A DNA stretch of 44,693 bases from Oscillospiraceae bacterium. GTDB lineage: Bacteria > Bacillota > Clostridia > Oscillospirales > Oscillospiraceae. The stretch is from assembly GCA_009778485.1 (NCBI GenBank), contig WRJQ01000010.1, positions 1 to 44,693 of the forward strand, given 5' to 3'. Position numbers and translations under genes: made by a program. Position 1 is the first letter of the stretch. Every line of letters begins with the position of its first letter. The notes below the pieces were generated by a model. The model made no database searches. It was not told the origin of the DNA and saw only the letters and a list, made by a program, of their open reading frames with translations. Shown in pieces: positions 9,916 to 44,604 of this stretch.

Positions 9916-10078
9916 AGTAGTGCGATTCCGAAATAGCGGTGTAAAGATTGCGGTGGATGTTTTCGTCCGGCTAGGCGAAAGACCGCAGGAATATCGGTGC
10001 TATTTCAAGGGCTTTCAACGAAGCCGGACGGAAAAAGATGCCGCAAGATTTGCATGGTTATTTCGTAATCGCACTACT
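9916..10078 (+). repeat. Dispersed hairpin-bounded element A, copy 1
   Basis: A 163-nt element bounded by 20-nt inverted arms (9916-9935 and 10059-10078, 19 of 20 complementary). Its core from 9947 to about 10049 aligns without gaps to the reverse complement of the element at 34423-34587, about three quarters identical. Invariant blocks include AGGCGAAAG, TATTTCAAGG, CTTTCAACG and ACGGAAAAAGA. Within the core, TCCGGCT and AGCCGGA can pair. It lies in the leader of ABC operon 1. It could be a structured RNA or a hairpin-ended mobile element; no protein is supported. Confidence 0.8.
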
Positions 10079-10106: not shown

Positions 10107-11072
10107 ATGCTCAGGTACATTATAAGACGCCTGCTGCTCATGATACCCACGCTGCTGGGTATTACGCTGATCGTCATGCTGTTCATCACGATCACGCCGG
10201 GCGACCCCGCGCGAATGCTCCTCGGCAACGACGCGACACAACAGGAAGTAGAAGAACTCAGGGAAGAGATGGGGCTCAACGACCCGTTTCCCGTCCGCTA
10301 CGCCAACTACATCAAGAACATATTCCAGGGCGATTTCGGAAAGTCCTTCAGGACGAAACGGCCGGTCTTGACCGAGATCATGACAAGGTACCCCTACTCG
10401 CTAATGCTCGTCTGCTTCAGCCTCGTGATGGCAATCTTCATCGGTATCCCGATAGGGATATACGCGGCGACGCACCAATACTCATGGAAGGATAACGCGG
10501 CTATATTCGCCTCGCTCTTCTGCGTTTCGATGCCGGGGTTCTGGTTCGCCTTGATGCTCATACAATTGCTATGCGTCAAGTTCCAGCTCCTGCCGCCCTC
10601 CGGCGTCGACAACTGGCAGGGGTGGATCCTGCCGGCGCTCACGAGCGCGCTGGGATTTGCCGCGACTATAGCAAGACAGACGAGGTCGAACCTCCTCGAA
10701 GTAATCAGGCAGGACTATATCACCACAGCGCGCGCCAAGGGCCAGTCCGAGAGGAAGGTCCTCTACAGGCACGCGCTGAAAAACGCCGTCATACCTGTCA
10801 TCATGATCGTCGGCTCGATATTCGGCATGGCTATGGGCGGCTCGATGATCTCCGAAGTCATCTTCTCGATACCGGGGCTGGGCAGCTACACGCTGGCGGG
10901 GCTCAACGCAAGGGACTACCCCGTCATCCAGACGAGCGTCCTGTTTATGTCGGCCCTCTTCGCCATTGTGCTCCTGCTCATTGACCTGGCGTTCGCCATT
11001 ATCGACCCGAGGATACGCTCCCAGTACGCCAGAAGGAAGAGAAAACCCGCGAAAGGAGGTGCGGCGACATGA
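10107..11072 (+). CDS. ABC transporter permease, DppB/OppB type (operon 1)
   Basis: A 321-residue inner-membrane permease of the dipeptide/oligopeptide/nickel family. It begins with the family signature MLRYIIRRLLLMIPTLLG, has about six hydrophobic segments, TITPGDPAR after the first, and the EAA cytoplasmic loop around residues 204-232 (TTARAKGQSERKVLYRHALK) that contacts the ATPases. GGGAGG lies 13 bases upstream. It overlaps the next permease by 4 bases (ATGA). With its partner it forms the translocation path for the substrate delivered by the lipoprotein at 14026. Substrate may be a peptide or another small organic molecule imported with this machinery. Confidence 0.93.
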   Translation: MLRYIIRRLLLMIPTLLGITLIVMLFITITPGDPARMLLGNDATQQEVEELREEMGLNDPFPVRYANYIKNIFQGDFGKSFRTKRPVLTEIMTRYPYSLMLVCFSLVMAIFIGIPIGIYAATHQYSWKDNAAIFASLFCVSMPGFWFALMLIQLLCVKFQLLPPSGVDNWQGWILPALTSALGFAATIARQTRSNLLEVIRQDYITTARAKGQSERKVLYRHALKNAVIPVIMIVGSIFGMAMGGSMISEVIFSIPGLGSYTLAGLNARDYPVIQTSVLFMSALFAIVLLLIDLAFAIIDPRIRSQYARRKRKPAKGGAAT

Positions 11073-32134: not shown

Positions 32135-33082
32135 ATGCCGGCACTACTCGAAGTCCGCGACCTGAAGAAATACTTCAAAACCAAGGGCGGGATGCTGCAC
32201 GCCGTGGACGGCATCAACTTCGCGCTCGAAGAGGGGAAGACGCTCGGAGTCGTCGGGGAGTCGGGCTGCGGCAAAACGACCCTCGGCCGCACGGTGCTTC
32301 ACCTTCTTGAGCCGACTGACGGCAAGATATTCTTCGAAGGCAAGGACATCACGACTCCTACTAAGAATGAGCTGCACGATCTTCGCGCGAAGATGCAGAT
32401 AATCTTCCAGGATCCATTCTCGTCGCTGGACCCCAGGAAGTCTGTGAGCGAGTCTATCATGGAACCGCTTAAGCTGAGGAAGAAGCACTCGAAGGCGGAT
32501 ATGCTAAAAGAGATGCGCGAGCTTATGGACACCGTCGGCCTCGCCGCGAGGTTCGAAAACTCGTACCCGCACGAGCTGGACGGAGGGAGGCGGCAGAGGA
32601 TAGGCATAGCGCGCGCCCTGTCCCTGAAACCTAAGTTCATAGTATGCGACGAGCCCGTCTCGGCGCTTGACGTGTCGATTCAGGCGCAGGTCATCAACCT
32701 CATGCTGGACCTGCAGGAGGAGCGCGGACTGGCGTATATGTTCGTGACGCATGACTTGTCCGTCGTAAAGTATATTTCTGACGACATCATGGTCATGTAC
32801 CTCGGGCAGATGGTCGAAAAAGCGCCATCCGACGATCTGTTCAGCGACACGCGCCATCCATATACGAAGGCTCTCCTATCGGCGATACCTGCTCCGGACA
32901 TCGACGACAAGACTGAGCGCATCCTGCTCAAGGGGGAAATAACCTCGCCCGTAGAGCCTAAGCCGGGCTGCCGCTTCATGGCTCGCTGCAGGTACGCTGC
33001 GGACGGCTGCGAGAAGCCGCAGAAGCTGGAAGAGCACGCACCCGGCCACTTCGTCGCGTGCTGCCGCCACAAGGAAATTTAG
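32135..33082 (+). CDS. ABC transporter ATPase, DppF/OppF type (operon 3)
   Basis: A 315-residue ATPase, the same length as its operon 1 homologue and aligning without gaps for at least the first 200 residues. Walker A GESGCGKTT (41-49), Q-loop IFQDPFSSLDP, Walker B FIVCDEPVSALD. The signature is again ELDGGRRQR with Asp149 in place of Ser. The start follows the upstream TAG by one base, preceded by AAAGGGGGCGG. Sharing of the altered signature supports descent of operons 1 and 3 from one duplicated transporter. Confidence 0.93.
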   Translation: MPALLEVRDLKKYFKTKGGMLHAVDGINFALEEGKTLGVVGESGCGKTTLGRTVLHLLEPTDGKIFFEGKDITTPTKNELHDLRAKMQIIFQDPFSSLDPRKSVSESIMEPLKLRKKHSKADMLKEMRELMDTVGLAARFENSYPHELDGGRRQRIGIARALSLKPKFIVCDEPVSALDVSIQAQVINLMLDLQEERGLAYMFVTHDLSVVKYISDDIMVMYLGQMVEKAPSDDLFSDTRHPYTKALLSAIPAPDIDDKTERILLKGEITSPVEPKPGCRFMARCRYAADGCEKPQKLEEHAPGHFVACCRHKEI

Positions 33083-33093
33083 GAGAAACGAAA

Positions 33094-34443
33094 ATGCAGG
33101 AAAAATATGAAAAACTATTCTACGAGTTCGAGCCACAGGAGACGAGCTGGGGCGACTGGTGCCACTCGCCGCAAGCGTACTTCAGGGGAGACAGGGACTT
33201 GCCCGGCTCCGTGATGAACGTCGGGTTCCAGGTCTTCAAAGCCCCGGTATTCCTGGAAAAAGAACCGCATTTCCACAGAGAAGACGAGTACCTTGTGTTC
33301 TTTGGCGCGGTGTTGCCTGACGTCTTCAAATCCTTCGACGCGGAAGTACACTTCTACATGGGAGAAAAACTCGACGCAATGGAAAAGATCGTCATAACGG
33401 AACCGACGATCATAAAGCTCCCCAAAGGCTGGTGGCACAGCCCGCTGAACTTCGTCCGCATGGATAAACCGATGCTGTTCCAGGCGGTAATGCTATCCGG
33501 CAAAGGCGGGTCAATAAAGTTTGTGGAGCGAAAGGACGGGGAGAAGCAGTTCATATACGGCGGGGGAGAGACGAGCATTTGCTCAATCGACCCCACGAAA
33601 GAATGCACATTTTGCGGCTACTGTTTCTCGCACCCGGAAGAGCGCGTCGAAAGGCCGTACACGCATGTGCCGTGGACCGTCGTCAACGAAGACGGCGTGG
33701 AGTCCTACTCAGACACAGGCGCCTACGACCATACGAAGTCGCCTATGGGACCAGACTGCGTCGTAATGCCGGGCTACGCCTCGAAGCCGTACTCTGACGC
33801 GACGAAGCTGAAAGCGCCCAAACCACCGCTCTCGCCGGCAGTTACAAAATGCGTGCTTGCCATGCCCAAGGAAGAGACGAACTGGGGCGCGTGGTGCCCC
33901 TCGCCGCAGGCGTATTTCAGAGGCGAGACATATATGGAAGACGCAACTTACCATGTAGGCTGGCAGGTATTCACCGCAGCGAACAACATGGAAGACACGC
34001 ATATCCACCAAGGAGTCGAGGAGTATATCTACTTCATGGGCGCAGACCCGATGAACATCTTCGATTTTGACGCGGAGATAGAGATGTTCTTCGGTGACGA
34101 CCCCGACCACCTGGAAAGCAAGATCATCACGAAGCCGACTGTCGTGCGCATACCGGCCAACGTCTGGCACTGCCCGATACTTTTCCGGAAAATGAACAAG
34201 CCGCTCATTTTCCAGGCGGCCTTCCTGTCGGGAACCTGGGGGACGATAAACCAGGTACGTAACGCAGACGACTCCGAACAGGCCGCGCAAGGCGATGACG
34301 ACAGGCCTTTCGCCCGCAGGCACACATACAGCTACATGGGCGATAACGTACGCTTCTGCAGATACAACGAGAAGAAACGTTGCAACATCTGCGGAAAATG
34401 CTTCCGCAAACCGGAGGAGTATCTAGTACCCTGTAACATCTAA
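33094..34443 (+). CDS. Double-cupin protein with two four-cysteine sites
   Basis: A 449-residue protein made of two homologous halves, each related to the single cupin at 26994. Repeat 1 has PHFHREDEY (59-67) and C163-x7-C171-x2-C174-x2-C177. Repeat 2 has THIHQGVEEY (302-311) and C422-x7-C430-x2-C433-x2-C436. Each half opens with a W-G-x-W-C-x-S-P-Q-A-Y-F-R-G pattern. AGGAG at 33081-33085 supports the ATG. It is the last gene of operon 3. The final residues (YLVPCNI) and the stop are encoded by the left arm of dispersed element A, so that element's insertion may have reset the C-terminus. Function unknown; probably metal-binding and cytoplasmic. Confidence 0.83.
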   Translation: MQEKYEKLFYEFEPQETSWGDWCHSPQAYFRGDRDLPGSVMNVGFQVFKAPVFLEKEPHFHREDEYLVFFGAVLPDVFKSFDAEVHFYMGEKLDAMEKIVITEPTIIKLPKGWWHSPLNFVRMDKPMLFQAVMLSGKGGSIKFVERKDGEKQFIYGGGETSICSIDPTKECTFCGYCFSHPEERVERPYTHVPWTVVNEDGVESYSDTGAYDHTKSPMGPDCVVMPGYASKPYSDATKLKAPKPPLSPAVTKCVLAMPKEETNWGAWCPSPQAYFRGETYMEDATYHVGWQVFTAANNMEDTHIHQGVEEYIYFMGADPMNIFDFDAEIEMFFGDDPDHLESKIITKPTVVRIPANVWHCPILFRKMNKPLIFQAAFLSGTWGTINQVRNADDSEQAAQGDDDRPFARRHTYSYMGDNVRFCRYNEKKRCNICGKCFRKPEEYLVPCNI

Positions 34444-34587
34444 AAGTTTACATTCTTACGATGTCTTTTTCCGTTACTCTGCGTTGAAAGTCCTTGAAAT
34501 ACCTAGGGTATTCCTTCGGCCTTTCGCCTTGATTACCGAAAAAATACACCGCAATTTTTGTAGCTTTTAGATGTTACACGGCACTAG
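34423..34587 (-). repeat. Dispersed hairpin-bounded element A, copy 2
   Basis: A 165-nt element in reverse orientation to copy 1. The bounding arms 34423-34446 and 34564-34587 are complementary at 22 of 24 positions but differ in sequence from the arms of copy 1, while the core is conserved. Inside, AATACC and GGTATT form a short hairpin. It overlaps the end of the double-cupin gene and could also act as its transcription end. Confidence 0.8.
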
Positions 34588-41337: not shown

Positions 41338-42138
41338 TTGCCGGGGCAAATACAACCGTACAGGATCGTCTGCGTAAAAAGCGATGAGTACGCGGACCGG
41401 TACACAAGCGGCATGCCGGGAAGTATCGTACGCGCGGGAGACTGTGAGTTTCATCTTTTCAAGTATTACGATGAATACAGCGAAACGCAAATCCTTGACC
41501 TACCGCGTTTTGAGGAAAACCCTGAGCACACCAGCGAGGGCAGGCCGTTTGTCACGGCGGTGCAGGAGTGGTGCCGCTACGGGGAGTCCGACGACCCGGA
41601 TTATCCCGCCCCCGGGATCTGCGGCGACTGCCGTTGGTGTCATATCGAACAACCCACCGGCGCGATCGGCGTCTGTATGTGCGAGAAACTCAAACTGAGT
41701 TCGGAGGGATATGAGATACCCTTTCGCACTGTGGAGGATGGAATATATTACACCCCCCTGTTTATGATGAGCGGCGTATCCATCATCGGGGGATTTGACG
41801 GGACGGAAGATGGCATCGAACCGAAATACACGCAAAACGGAAACCCGGAGCAAACGGCGACAAACACCGTTTTTTCCGGCGGCGGCGAGGTGCGCGTGTT
41901 TGAAAACACCGGAAGATACGGCGATGTAAACAGCACCGCTACGCTGGAAAACGTCATTATAACTAAAGGATACCTGCTCAGAGGCACCGCAGACGCCCAA
42001 GGCGGAGGTATGTACAACGTAAACTGCGACCCGACCCTAATCAATTGTACCTTTATCGGTAATGACGCCCAGGCACATCACGTCGGCAACGACGCCCAAG
42101 GCGGTGCTATGTACAACCTGAAATCCGCATTCGTGTAA
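41338..42138 (+). pseudogene. Truncated beta-helix/polymorphic-repeat surface protein
   Basis: A 266-codon fragment cut off by the IS. The C-terminal part has the hallmarks of parallel beta-helix or polymorphic outer-surface repeats: SGVSIIGGFDGTEDG, then ADAQGGGMYN, CDPTLINCTFIGNDAQ and a second GGAMYN unit. The protein would be expected to run on for many repeats, but the stop codon lies inside the IS left end. The first 110 residues are unlike this family and contain a cysteine-rich segment (CGDCRWCHIEQ and VCMCEK). No signal peptide is seen and the start (TTG) is doubtful, so the 5' end may also be rearranged. Confidence 0.65.
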
Positions 42139-43704
42139 CTATGTTTCCGTGTCAATGCCGAAATGGTCGACGATCTTTTGCTGTATCGGGCTTGTCTCGG
42201 AGTAGATGCTCCACGGCTTGTCTATGCATGTGATTTTGATGATAGACTCCATGGCTTCCATAATCTCCCTTGGCGACATATATTTCAAAGACTTGTCATT
42301 TCTAACTTCTGATCTGATTTTGCTTATCAGTATAAGTGCTAGGAACTGTATGAACAGCCTTGCATCCATCGCTTGCGAGGAATGTATCCTGAGACGCTTC
42401 ATGTCAAGCCCGTTCTTCAAGTCGTCAAAGCAGTTCTCTACGACATCTTTCCTCCTGTATATCTCAAGTAGCTCGCCGGAGTCTGTCTTGACGTTCGTAA
42501 GTATGCAGAAGAAACCCGCGTAGCGCTTTCGGTATTTCTGTATCTCCTCATTGTTGTAGGCCACCGACAGCCCGCGCTTTGGAGTCCGCTTAACGATGAA
42601 GAAGCGTTCGTAAAGCGACTTGTGCGCGTCGACAGGCTCGTCGGCTTCGAGCTCGCCCTTGCATATAACAAGCTTCTTGTTCAAGTTGTCGAAGTCCTCC
42701 GCAGACTTTGTCGCGTTGTAATATAGGTGCGCGTAGCACCTGTGGCCTTTCCACTGGAAAAGGTGCGCCACCATGTACAGCACCTCGTCCTCGCCGGTCT
42801 GCCTGTAATGCTCCGGGCTGGATACCTGCTCGTAGTACTGGTCAATGATTTCCCTTACCCAAACCCGGTCGGCGCGCGCCATAAGTACGAAACGATACCG
42901 CCTTTCGAAGAGCGTGTCCACGTTGGCCTCGCTGTAGAAGCCGCGGTCAAGCACAAGGTAGAGTTTCCTCTTGCCGAGGAAATCCAGCGTGTCTATCGTC
43001 GTGTCAAGAGTGGCCACATCCGTTATTGCGCCCTGCAGCCTCCTGTAATAGGCAGGCAGCTCGCTCTTCTGCCCGTAGAGCATCGCCAAGTTAATCTGCG
43101 GCAGCTTCTCCTTGTCGCGGTTATACCCCAGGCGGACGTACTCGTTCGCTGTCGCGTAGCTCGACACGGAAGTGATGTCATAGCACAGGAGCTCGTTCTC
43201 CAGCAGGCGCCCCATCCATAGCGAGAGGAAGTGCTGGCGGCTGTCCTCCGTCACCTTCTTCAGCAGGTCGCTTACCTGCTGGCTTCCGATGGGCTGCCCA
43301 TACGGGTGCTGGTGGCTCGCGCTCCACAGGTTGCACCGCGACAGAGCGACGCCTTTCTGGACTATGAAGTAAACGAGACTCAGTATCTCCCCTGATATTT
43401 CGGGCATGCTCGCCTCAAGCATCATCGCAAGCCCCGTCTCCTCCGCGAGTTTCTCAAGAAGTAAGAAAGGCCCGAAAACCTTTGTGGTAGCTTTAAATCC
43501 CGCGCCTGGTTCTTCTACGACGGCTTTTTTCTTCCTCCGTTTCGAAGGTATGAGCTCTCCTGTCTCTTCGTTGTACCTTCCAAGGCAAACCTGTTTGTTG
43601 CGCGCTGCTTTCTTGCCCTTGTCCCAGTAGCTTTCTACGGAATAGAGGTAGGCTGAGCCGTTAGGTTTCCGGTGGATTGTAGTGCCCGGCTTAGATTCTG
43701 CCAC
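42139..43704 (-). CDS. IS1634-family transposase (DDE)
   Basis: A complete 521-residue transposase. The N-terminus (HRKPNGSAYLYSVESYWDKG) and lysine-rich RRKKK segment are typical. Catalytic candidates are Asp176 in CYDITSVSSYA, Asp253 in LVLDRGFYSEAN and Glu423 in YRRKDVVENCFDDLK. The C-terminus has LFIQFLALILISKIR. Start is GTG with GGGGTGA upstream. It has a perfect sigma-A promoter and no inactivating change, so the element may be active. Confidence 0.92.
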   Translation of the reverse strand: MAESKPGTTIHRKPNGSAYLYSVESYWDKGKKAARNKQVCLGRYNEETGELIPSKRRKKKAVVEEPGAGFKATTKVFGPFLLLEKLAEETGLAMMLEASMPEISGEILSLVYFIVQKGVALSRCNLWSASHQHPYGQPIGSQQVSDLLKKVTEDSRQHFLSLWMGRLLENELLCYDITSVSSYATANEYVRLGYNRDKEKLPQINLAMLYGQKSELPAYYRRLQGAITDVATLDTTIDTLDFLGKRKLYLVLDRGFYSEANVDTLFERRYRFVLMARADRVWVREIIDQYYEQVSSPEHYRQTGEDEVLYMVAHLFQWKGHRCYAHLYYNATKSAEDFDNLNKKLVICKGELEADEPVDAHKSLYERFFIVKRTPKRGLSVAYNNEEIQKYRKRYAGFFCILTNVKTDSGELLEIYRRKDVVENCFDDLKNGLDMKRLRIHSSQAMDARLFIQFLALILISKIRSEVRNDKSLKYMSPREIMEAMESIIKITCIDKPWSIYSETSPIQQKIVDHFGIDTET

Positions 43705-43718
43705 GCTATCACCCCAAA

Positions 43719-43765
43719 CATAGTTACATTGAATCTATTATAACTATGTTTCGCCGATTTGTCAA
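43719..43765 (-). promoter_or_regulatory. Perfect-consensus transposase promoter with TIR-like operators
   Basis: On the - strand TTGACA (43760-43765) and TATAAT (43737-43742) are exactly 17 bases apart. The -10 is flanked by inverted CATAGTTA (43719-43726) and TAACTATG (43741-43748), the same octamer as in the element's ends, so the transposase may bind here and repress itself. Confidence 0.8.
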
Positions 43766-43817
43766 GAGGTTCTGTGCAGAATTGTCCTTTATTTTCAATG
43801 AGTTTGTTACATCTGAG

Positions 43818-43851
43818 CTAGTTACATAGTTACACGTACACGGAGTTCAGG
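43818..43851 (+). repeat. 34-bp perfect inverted repeat, left arm
   Basis: Exactly reverse-complementary to 44571-44604. It consists of the outer 18 bases of the IS right end plus 16 bases of flank. The two arms enclose the serpin fragment. Confidence 0.9.
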
Positions 43852-43993
43852 ATACAAACAAACACAGCTATATACAAAAACTCCCGTGATACCGCTGTCT
43901 GCGCTCTCTGCGCAGATAAGAACGATACACGACAGTATTTTAACACAGACCACCCAAGAGGGCAATTTTTTTCTGAGCAAGGCAAAAATGCTT

Positions 43994-44032
43994 TGCCAAA
44001 CCTTTGGCATTTTTTGCGGGATGTGTTATATT
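43994..44032 (+). promoter_or_regulatory. Serpin promoter with overlapping palindrome
   Basis: TTGGCA (44004-44009), 17-base spacer, TATATT (44027-44032). The -35 forms half of the 16-bp palindrome TGCCAAACCTTTGGCA (43994-44009), a good operator candidate. Confidence 0.65.
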
Positions 44033-44075
44033 TAGAGGGTCTAAAGGTACGCACACATAGATGGAGGCTACGCAC

Positions 44076-44600
44076 ATGAGAAGAATCAGAACTTATATAG
44101 CGATACTGATTATCGCAGCAAACACTATGAACTTTGCGGGTTGTTCCTTAGCGGCTAAAGCTGCGGACTTAATGGATGGCATATCGGCAAACAGTGTAAC
44201 AGGCAAGAAAGCGGACGAGGCGTTTACCGCTAACATGGCAGATTTTGCGATGGAGTTGTTTAAAAAAAGCATAACGGAAAAACAGAACTCGCTTATTTCG
44301 CCACTATCGGTAATGCTTGCGCTTGCTATGACCGCAAACGGAGCGGATGGCGAGACATTGGCGCAGATGGAAACGCTGCTCGGCGGCGGTATCCGGCTTG
44401 CCGAGCTTAACGAGTATCTCTATAGCTACATCAAAGCGCTTCCGAATACTGAAAAATCAAAGTTGAGTATCGCCGACTCGATCTGGTTCCGTGATCAAAA
44501 GGATAGATTGCAGGTCAAGCCTGATTTCCTGCAAGTAAACGCTGATTATTACGGCGCAGCAGTATATAAACCTGAACTCCGTGTACGTGTAACTATGTAA
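44076..44600 (+). pseudogene. Serpin lipoprotein, C-terminally truncated
   Basis: The N-terminal part of a serine protease inhibitor. A signal peptide ends NFAGC (lipidated Cys23), so it was a surface lipoprotein. Serpin features follow: FTANMADFAMELFKKSI, NSLISPLSVMLALAMTANGA, IADSIWFRDQ and VNADYYGAAVYK. Identity stops there; the last residues PELRVRVTM are encoded by the inverted repeat and the stop lies in IS-end-like sequence. About half of the serpin fold, including the reactive-centre loop, is missing, so it cannot inhibit. TGGAGG eight bases before ATG 44076 selects this start. Confidence 0.8.
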
Positions 44601-44604
44601 CTAG
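44571..44604 (-). repeat. 34-bp perfect inverted repeat, right arm
   Basis: Reverse complement of 43818-43851. Beyond 44604 the sequence no longer resembles the IS interior, up to the window end. Confidence 0.9.

Follow-up and report, generated by a model that had tools for sequence, protein, structure and literature searches.

Element A, found twice in the window (the whole 44,693-nucleotide stretch of Oscillospiraceae DNA analysed here), is most likely a palindromic MITE of a superfamily that spans two phyla, has a conserved two-loop core and uses one of its strands for the element itself; we give this reading a probability of about 0.8. Its copies are dispersed and bounded by terminal inverted repeats, and related end types have target duplications as well as ends that also occur at IS5-family transposase genes. 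The interior changes over time like a hairpin formed by the AAGGC strand: its loops are near-fixed, its stems are compensated, and G·T mismatches are tolerated more than A·C.

Copies in the window and in related genomes

Both copies reported in the initial annotation are present (Table 1). A BLAST search of the genome with copy 1 gives 77% identity to copy 2 over 96 gap-free bases (E 7.9e-15), in agreement with the shared core of about 100 nt at about 75% described there. The outer arms are unlike between the copies yet self-complementary within each, at 19/20 positions (95%) in copy 1 and 22/24 (92%) in copy 2, exactly as had been noted. Each whole element is predicted to form one long imperfect hairpin, with -88.2 kcal/mol (z -11.5) for copy 1 and -75.1 kcal/mol (z -10.9) for copy 2; none of 200 shuffles was as stable in either case. 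The pairing of TCCGGCT with AGCCGGA proposed for copy 1 is found in its predicted fold. The GNRA-capped stem suggested for GGCGAAAGACC was rejected: its GAAAG pairs with CTTTC about 30 nt further on, and 6 of the 8 pairs of this helix change on both sides among 62 aligned cores.

Table 1. Positions of the two element A copies and their parts in the window
Feature	Position	Strand	Remarks
Copy 1, palindromic MITE, 163 nt	9916..10078	+	Arms and fold; 98% identical same-arm copy elsewhere in genome
Copy 1 left arm (terminal inverted repeat)	9916..9937	+	20/22 complementary to right arm
Copy 1 right arm (terminal inverted repeat)	10057..10078	+	
Copy 1 conserved hairpin core	9943..10050	+	Model R1, 96.8 bits; copy itself in model
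Copy 1 loop 1, 5' side, TAGGC (other copies mostly AAGGC)	9972..9976	+	
Copy 1 loop 1, 3' side, AACGA (other copies mostly AACGC)	10017..10021	+	
Copy 1 loop 2, 5' side, CGCAG	9984..9988	+	
Copy 1 loop 2, 3' side, CAAG	10006..10009	+	
Copy 2 of MITE, 165 nt, CTAG at both ends	34423..34587	-	96% identical copy on contig C4
Copy 2 conserved hairpin core	34452..34559	-	Model R1, 100.2 bits; copy itself in model
Copy 2 loop 1, 5' side, AAGGC	34526..34530	-	
Copy 2 loop 1, 3' side, AACGC	34481..34485	-	
Copy 2 loop 2, 5' side, CGAAG	34514..34518	-	
Copy 2 loop 2, 3' side, CAAG	34493..34496	-	

The ends of copy 1 read CCAG and CTTG, so that its target duplication is not clean; those of copy 2 are both CTAG. 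No ORF of at least 100 aa spans either copy, and some ORFs end inside a copy or overlap one of its ends. The ORF at 33058-34443 (+) has its last codons (LVPCNI) and its stop inside copy 2, at 34423-34443, and the insertion seems to have replaced the end of the protein. At two other loci (L005, L008) the CTAG of the element also supplies a stop codon.

The core covariance model has at least nine matches in the genome of the window, and neighbouring genes of copies in this genome are unrelated to each other. The sister of copy 1, 98% identical including the arms, lies directly after a gene that we take to be tufA, and a copy on contig C5 has arms quite unlike the others. A search with the tufA end matched in 11 relatives. 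In the four that were inspected beyond the stop (G004, G007, G009 and G010) no such hairpin lies within about 100 bp; the intergenic DNA could not be aligned. Across the genus there are many arm sequence types, the length is nearly constant and pairing is kept within each copy. Two copies (L026, L069) are chimeras with arms unlike each other. Shrunken copies (L102, L113, L330, L325, L326; 75, 52, 48, 22 nt) keep both ends and have lost the core, which matches what replication slippage across the hairpin would leave.

Other arrangements were also seen. Six loci (L096, L103, L105, L108, L110, L114) hold a solo arm of 17-24 nt (CTAGTACTYCATTCT...) without hairpin or second arm, and several of these solo ends adjoin terminator-like hairpins. 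In a form of about 300 bp in G063 and G087 (L042, L044, L129) a single pair of outer repeats encloses both the core and another hairpin, which is terminator-like. Some gammaproteobacterial copies (L365, L373, L380) are closely followed by a second core-like piece (GTTGCG...AAGGGAATGACCATTCC and similar), perhaps in a tandem or overlapping arrangement.

The conserved core and its transposon ends

Covariation between the two copies had been read in the initial annotation as pointing to selection on structure, and with more copies it is strong. Across 62 cores, 91.9% of cells pair, whereas shuffles reach 73.6%. The cores have a covariation score of 0.488 and the shuffles one of 0.170, with none of 500 shuffles scoring as high; sliding the partners lowers the score to 0.140 or less. 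Changes on both sides are found in 24 of 31 core pairs (19.2 in shuffles) and, for whole elements, in 40/51 pairs of the genus set and 47/54 of the wider set. The loops AAGGC/AACGC and CGNAG/CAAG are nearly fixed and the flanking stems vary with compensation, U-G occurring in 26 of the 62 cores at columns 22 and 92. Most of 40 examples share one plan, in the order AAGGC, variable stem, CGNAG, apical stem, CAAG, partner stem and AACGC, and departures from this two-loop plan are confined to single copies. The interior of the element is under structural selection.

The search of the genome and its relatives with a covariance model, which had been proposed as a check, shows that the core is widespread. 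Model R1, built from the 62 cores and run with strict filters and rough E-values, matches in 149 of 395 genomes of the order of the window (73 of 173 genera) and in 97 of 369 genomes of Gammaproteobacteria, the class of Reinekea, with per-genome counts taken among the matches listed. A pattern scan of named genomes gave at least 118 stretches, most of them from Oscillospiraceae and other Clostridia; the gammaproteobacterial matches listed are from Shewanella sp. ANA-3, Reinekea marinisedimentorum and two uncultured organisms. The plasmid search with the core has one match, again in Shewanella sp. ANA-3, and searches of phages, viral contigs and E. coli genomes have none. In the comparison with Rfam, likewise proposed at the outset, no family fits the element: the window has no matches, six loci of the same genome searched with E up to 10 give nothing on the element, and 20 other loci give only matches far below the gathering threshold. 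Weak matches to miRNA precursors and rliI at L365, L368, L369, L377 and L382 were dismissed, as any long hairpin can produce such matches.

The ends of related elements are those of a transposon. Identical 3-bp flanks are present in 25 of 29 related elements with the GARSC end type, and all 25 are TNA. In Flintibacter muris the 16-nt end AGAACCTGTATTCACA is common to hairpins and to a stretch that starts 45 bp ahead of two ORFs of the IS5 family, over which the transposase gene is split. The two ORFs match the NCBIfam IS5 family transposase (258 positions) at 1-128 and 135-248, in each case with a score under the cut-off of that family, and pass the Pfam cut-offs for PF13340 and PF01609; a search for the right end of this Flintibacter element did not find one. 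Two further PF13340 genes of Flintibacter muris start beside TAAGAGCCTGTTTAAAA or TAAGTGCCTGTTTAAAA, the end type of the hairpins of G047, and one of them has a matching inverted 10-mer 863 bp on. Ends shared with transposases were seen for the AGAACC and GAGCC end types. The initial annotation had set a simple MITE, recognised by target duplications and a transposase-associated end, against a structured RNA. Such duplications and an IS5-family end are largely what the relatives show, and selection on structure is supported as well; taken with the strong covariation, this makes the element both a MITE and a structured hairpin.

For the CTAGT subfamily, to which the window belongs, searches for a partner transposase gave no candidate with matching ends. 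PF13340, PF01609 and PF13358 have 0, 0 and 0 matches in the copy-rich, 98% complete G004, and in G000 PF13340 has none and three PF01609/PF13358 genes have other ends or none. IS630 (PF13358), considered because of the CTAG target, gave 5 matches in 4 of 8 genomes with no shared ends. Neither the window transposase at 42139-43704, whose inverted repeats differ (CCTGAA...), nor the second PF01609 gene of the genome, which has no inverted repeats like those of the element, qualifies as a partner. G006 holds one complete IS5-like element with ends CTAGATAGTGTGGACATGAG, the likeness lying mainly in CTAG. At two contig ends of Reinekea, TAGTGGGCCATGCG is followed by a stub of about 14 codons, for which searching plasmids gave no identification, and none of the four PF01609 loci of this genome has a TAGTGGGCCATGCG end.

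The window transposase itself lies in a larger repeat arrangement. Its PF01609 gene, at 42139-43704 (-), is part of 42117-44604, and a 34-bp perfect inverted copy of one of its CCTGAA... ends is found at 43818-43851 and 44571-44604, a pair that encloses a cut-off ORF which by eye we named serpin-like.

End types were set by text patterns, which 29 of 129 copies do not fit and which seem to have mislabelled one copy as 'MIXED' and a few as CTAGT; so defined, the end type tracks the core tree with 10 changes compared to 42.1 in shuffles. For each of the AGAACC and GAGCC end types, forks with good support require three changes or more, indicating that ends are exchanged now and then. The chimeras L026 and L069 suggest that this may happen through recombination within the common core.

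Strand asymmetry and gene direction

When decay or correction acts on a palindrome in double-stranded form, G·T and A·C mismatches are expected in equal numbers, so that an excess of G·T points to a fold of one strand. We counted both in contrasts between disjoint nearest neighbours, which removes most inheritance, using full-length elements only (24 from the genus and 49 others) and columns chosen by Watson-Crick pairing alone; an earlier run had used RNAalifold pairs, which favour G·T, and the repeat is without that bias. In the 49-sequence wider set the middle stem has a G·T:A·C ratio of 61:23 (p 4e-5), the outer ends have 18:18 and the core has 15:11. In the 24-sequence genus set the values are 26:13 (p 0.053), 13:3 and 13:0, respectively, and 52:16 over all pairs (p 1.4e-5). 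The outermost ends of the wider set thus look like double-stranded DNA, and the inner stem looks like the AAGGC strand folded on its own. In the genus of the window the outer ends share the bias of the stem, and the middle stem alone is weak.

Two larger counts were also made. Self-alignment of 129 copies, reduced to 92 unlike ones and scored blind to G·T and A·C with inherited positions counted, gives G·T:A·C of 122:233 at 0-30 nt from the apex, 206:43 at 30-55 nt, 164:17 at 55-75 nt and 26:26 at 75 nt and more. The apical A·C excess speaks against the strand reading; we put it down to fixed loop mismatches, because the contrasts for this region give 15:11 and 13:0. In 39 further elements, one per genome, the ratio is 124:29 in the middle stem, 42:92 apically and 15:17 in the outer part, and G·T exceeds A·C in the middle stem of 35 of them; this set was chosen by an RNA model with inherited positions counted, excludes L366 as too short and includes at least one element (L387) that repeats one of the first set (L152), and we use it as support only. 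Together the counts point to selection, on behalf of the element itself, for the fold that one strand adopts either as RNA or as single-stranded DNA.

An ordinary MITE, whose interior has no function and persists only because it is inherited and because one arm corrects the other, could show a G·T excess through inheritance or a biased choice of pairs. The tracking of the core by the end type would fit such an element, as would the inherited positions in the self-alignment and 39-element counts and the RNA bias of RNAalifold pairs. However, the excess is still seen in the contrasts between disjoint nearest neighbours, where the choice of pairs ignored G·T, arm correction should treat both strands alike, and near-fixed loops stand beside freely compensated stems in two phyla. 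We consider this explanation unlikely.

If the strand acted in cis, as a riboswitch, attenuator or 3'-UTR element controlling its neighbour, a preferred direction relative to genes would be seen. Copy 1 ends 28 bp before the ORF at 10107 and had been suggested to lie in the leader of ABC operon 1, and its stable fold, the covariation and the one-strand excess of G·T over A·C would all suit such a role. In 84 of the 129 copies the flanks were sufficiently unlike for a count, with ORFs taken as longest-ORF guesses: 78 lie between ORFs and 6 inside one, and the 78 intergenic copies are 39:39 sense to antisense whichever neighbouring gene is used (classes of 24, 24, 15 and 15). Copy 2 is oriented against the gene that precedes it, and the sister of copy 1 follows the presumed tufA. 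The lack of a direction bias argues against an RNA acting in cis and largely refutes it; the unrelated neighbours in the same genome and the target duplications and transposon ends of relatives also speak against it. We regard control of a neighbour such as ABC operon 1 as highly improbable, and the place of copy 1 before this operon would be a chance landing site.

For the MITE whose strand acts for the element itself, we propose that a transposase in trans would bind the outer 10-20 bp or so as double-stranded DNA and move the element. Both ends have to fit one transposase, which would explain why the arms differ between subfamilies and match within a copy. The AAGGC strand would act single-stranded through a factor recognising the two loops, whose near fixation suggests a binder. 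It is somewhat more likely to act as RNA than as single-stranded DNA because G·U is used so freely. A hairpin of single-stranded DNA, bound at its loops and exposed for example on the template of the lagging strand while DNA is replicated or transposed, would combine a one-strand constraint with no bias towards gene direction. Some GNA loops of DNA are unusually stable, and the C-GNA-G of loop 2 may resemble them. Yet G·T is common at some paired columns (22 and 92), which suits RNA better, and 3-bp duplications and IS5-type ends, as found here, typify double-strand transposition. We judge the single-stranded DNA form rather unlikely.

A broader reading takes the core as a functional nucleic-acid module of its own kind, which selfish DNA in at least two phyla carries behind exchangeable transposon ends. 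One of its strands, in RNA or single-stranded DNA form, would be recognised by a factor of the host or the transposase that is itself widely conserved. We put this forward tentatively, at somewhat below even odds.

Comparison with known systems

According to one review, prokaryotic MITEs are short, gene-less and intergenic, have terminal inverted repeats and target duplications, are moved in trans by the transposase of an IS, and would give transcripts folding as stable hairpins (PMC10969869). Element A is likewise short, gene-less and intergenic, with inverted repeats and with duplications in its relatives. In contrast to the MITEs of that account, as far as its accessible text goes, element A has a core common to several end types and to two phyla, compensated stems and a one-strand signature; no such core is described there (PMC10969869). 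With IS5-family insertion sequences (NF033580, PF13340) it shares ends in Flintibacter and, by type, in G047, as well as TNA duplications, but it lacks a transposase gene, and no matching IS was found for the CTAGT subfamily.

REPINs and RAYT-linked REPs depend on tyrosine transposases. As with element A, movement in trans has been proposed for these small, non-autonomous hairpins (PMC3116915, PMC2817692). Unlike REPINs, the relatives of element A show TNA duplications and IS5-type ends. A likeness of ERIC to the AAGGC/AACGC pair had suggested a possible kinship, which was not borne out, as model R1 has no match, with E up to 10, in one E. coli copy (L364). ERIC, a 127-bp enterobacterial repeat, resembles element A in being a dispersed, intergenic, imperfect palindrome, and the 167-168 bp Yersinia palindromes YPAL and RU-2 are similar to it in length and palindromic habit; in the portion of the source that is accessible, their printed sequence has by eye no AAGGC/AACGC pair (PMC2759123).

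As a MITE, element A is of a known kind. For its conserved two-loop core we found no published description in searches of open-access literature. MITEs are usually seen as transposons without their gene, with selection on the ends only. Element A reverses this picture: its ends vary and its interior is kept, in two phyla and with a mark of selection on one strand. It can also pass for a riboswitch or a small RNA, and the earlier leader-RNA reading is a case in point. Even if the core has no binder, a repeat absent from Rfam is present in more than a third of the sampled genomes of the order and in about a quarter of the sampled Gammaproteobacteria. If it has one, this would be a widespread, unannotated system of RNA or DNA recognition, and if the core is a module of its own, element A would represent a new class of structured mobile element and not a decayed transposon.
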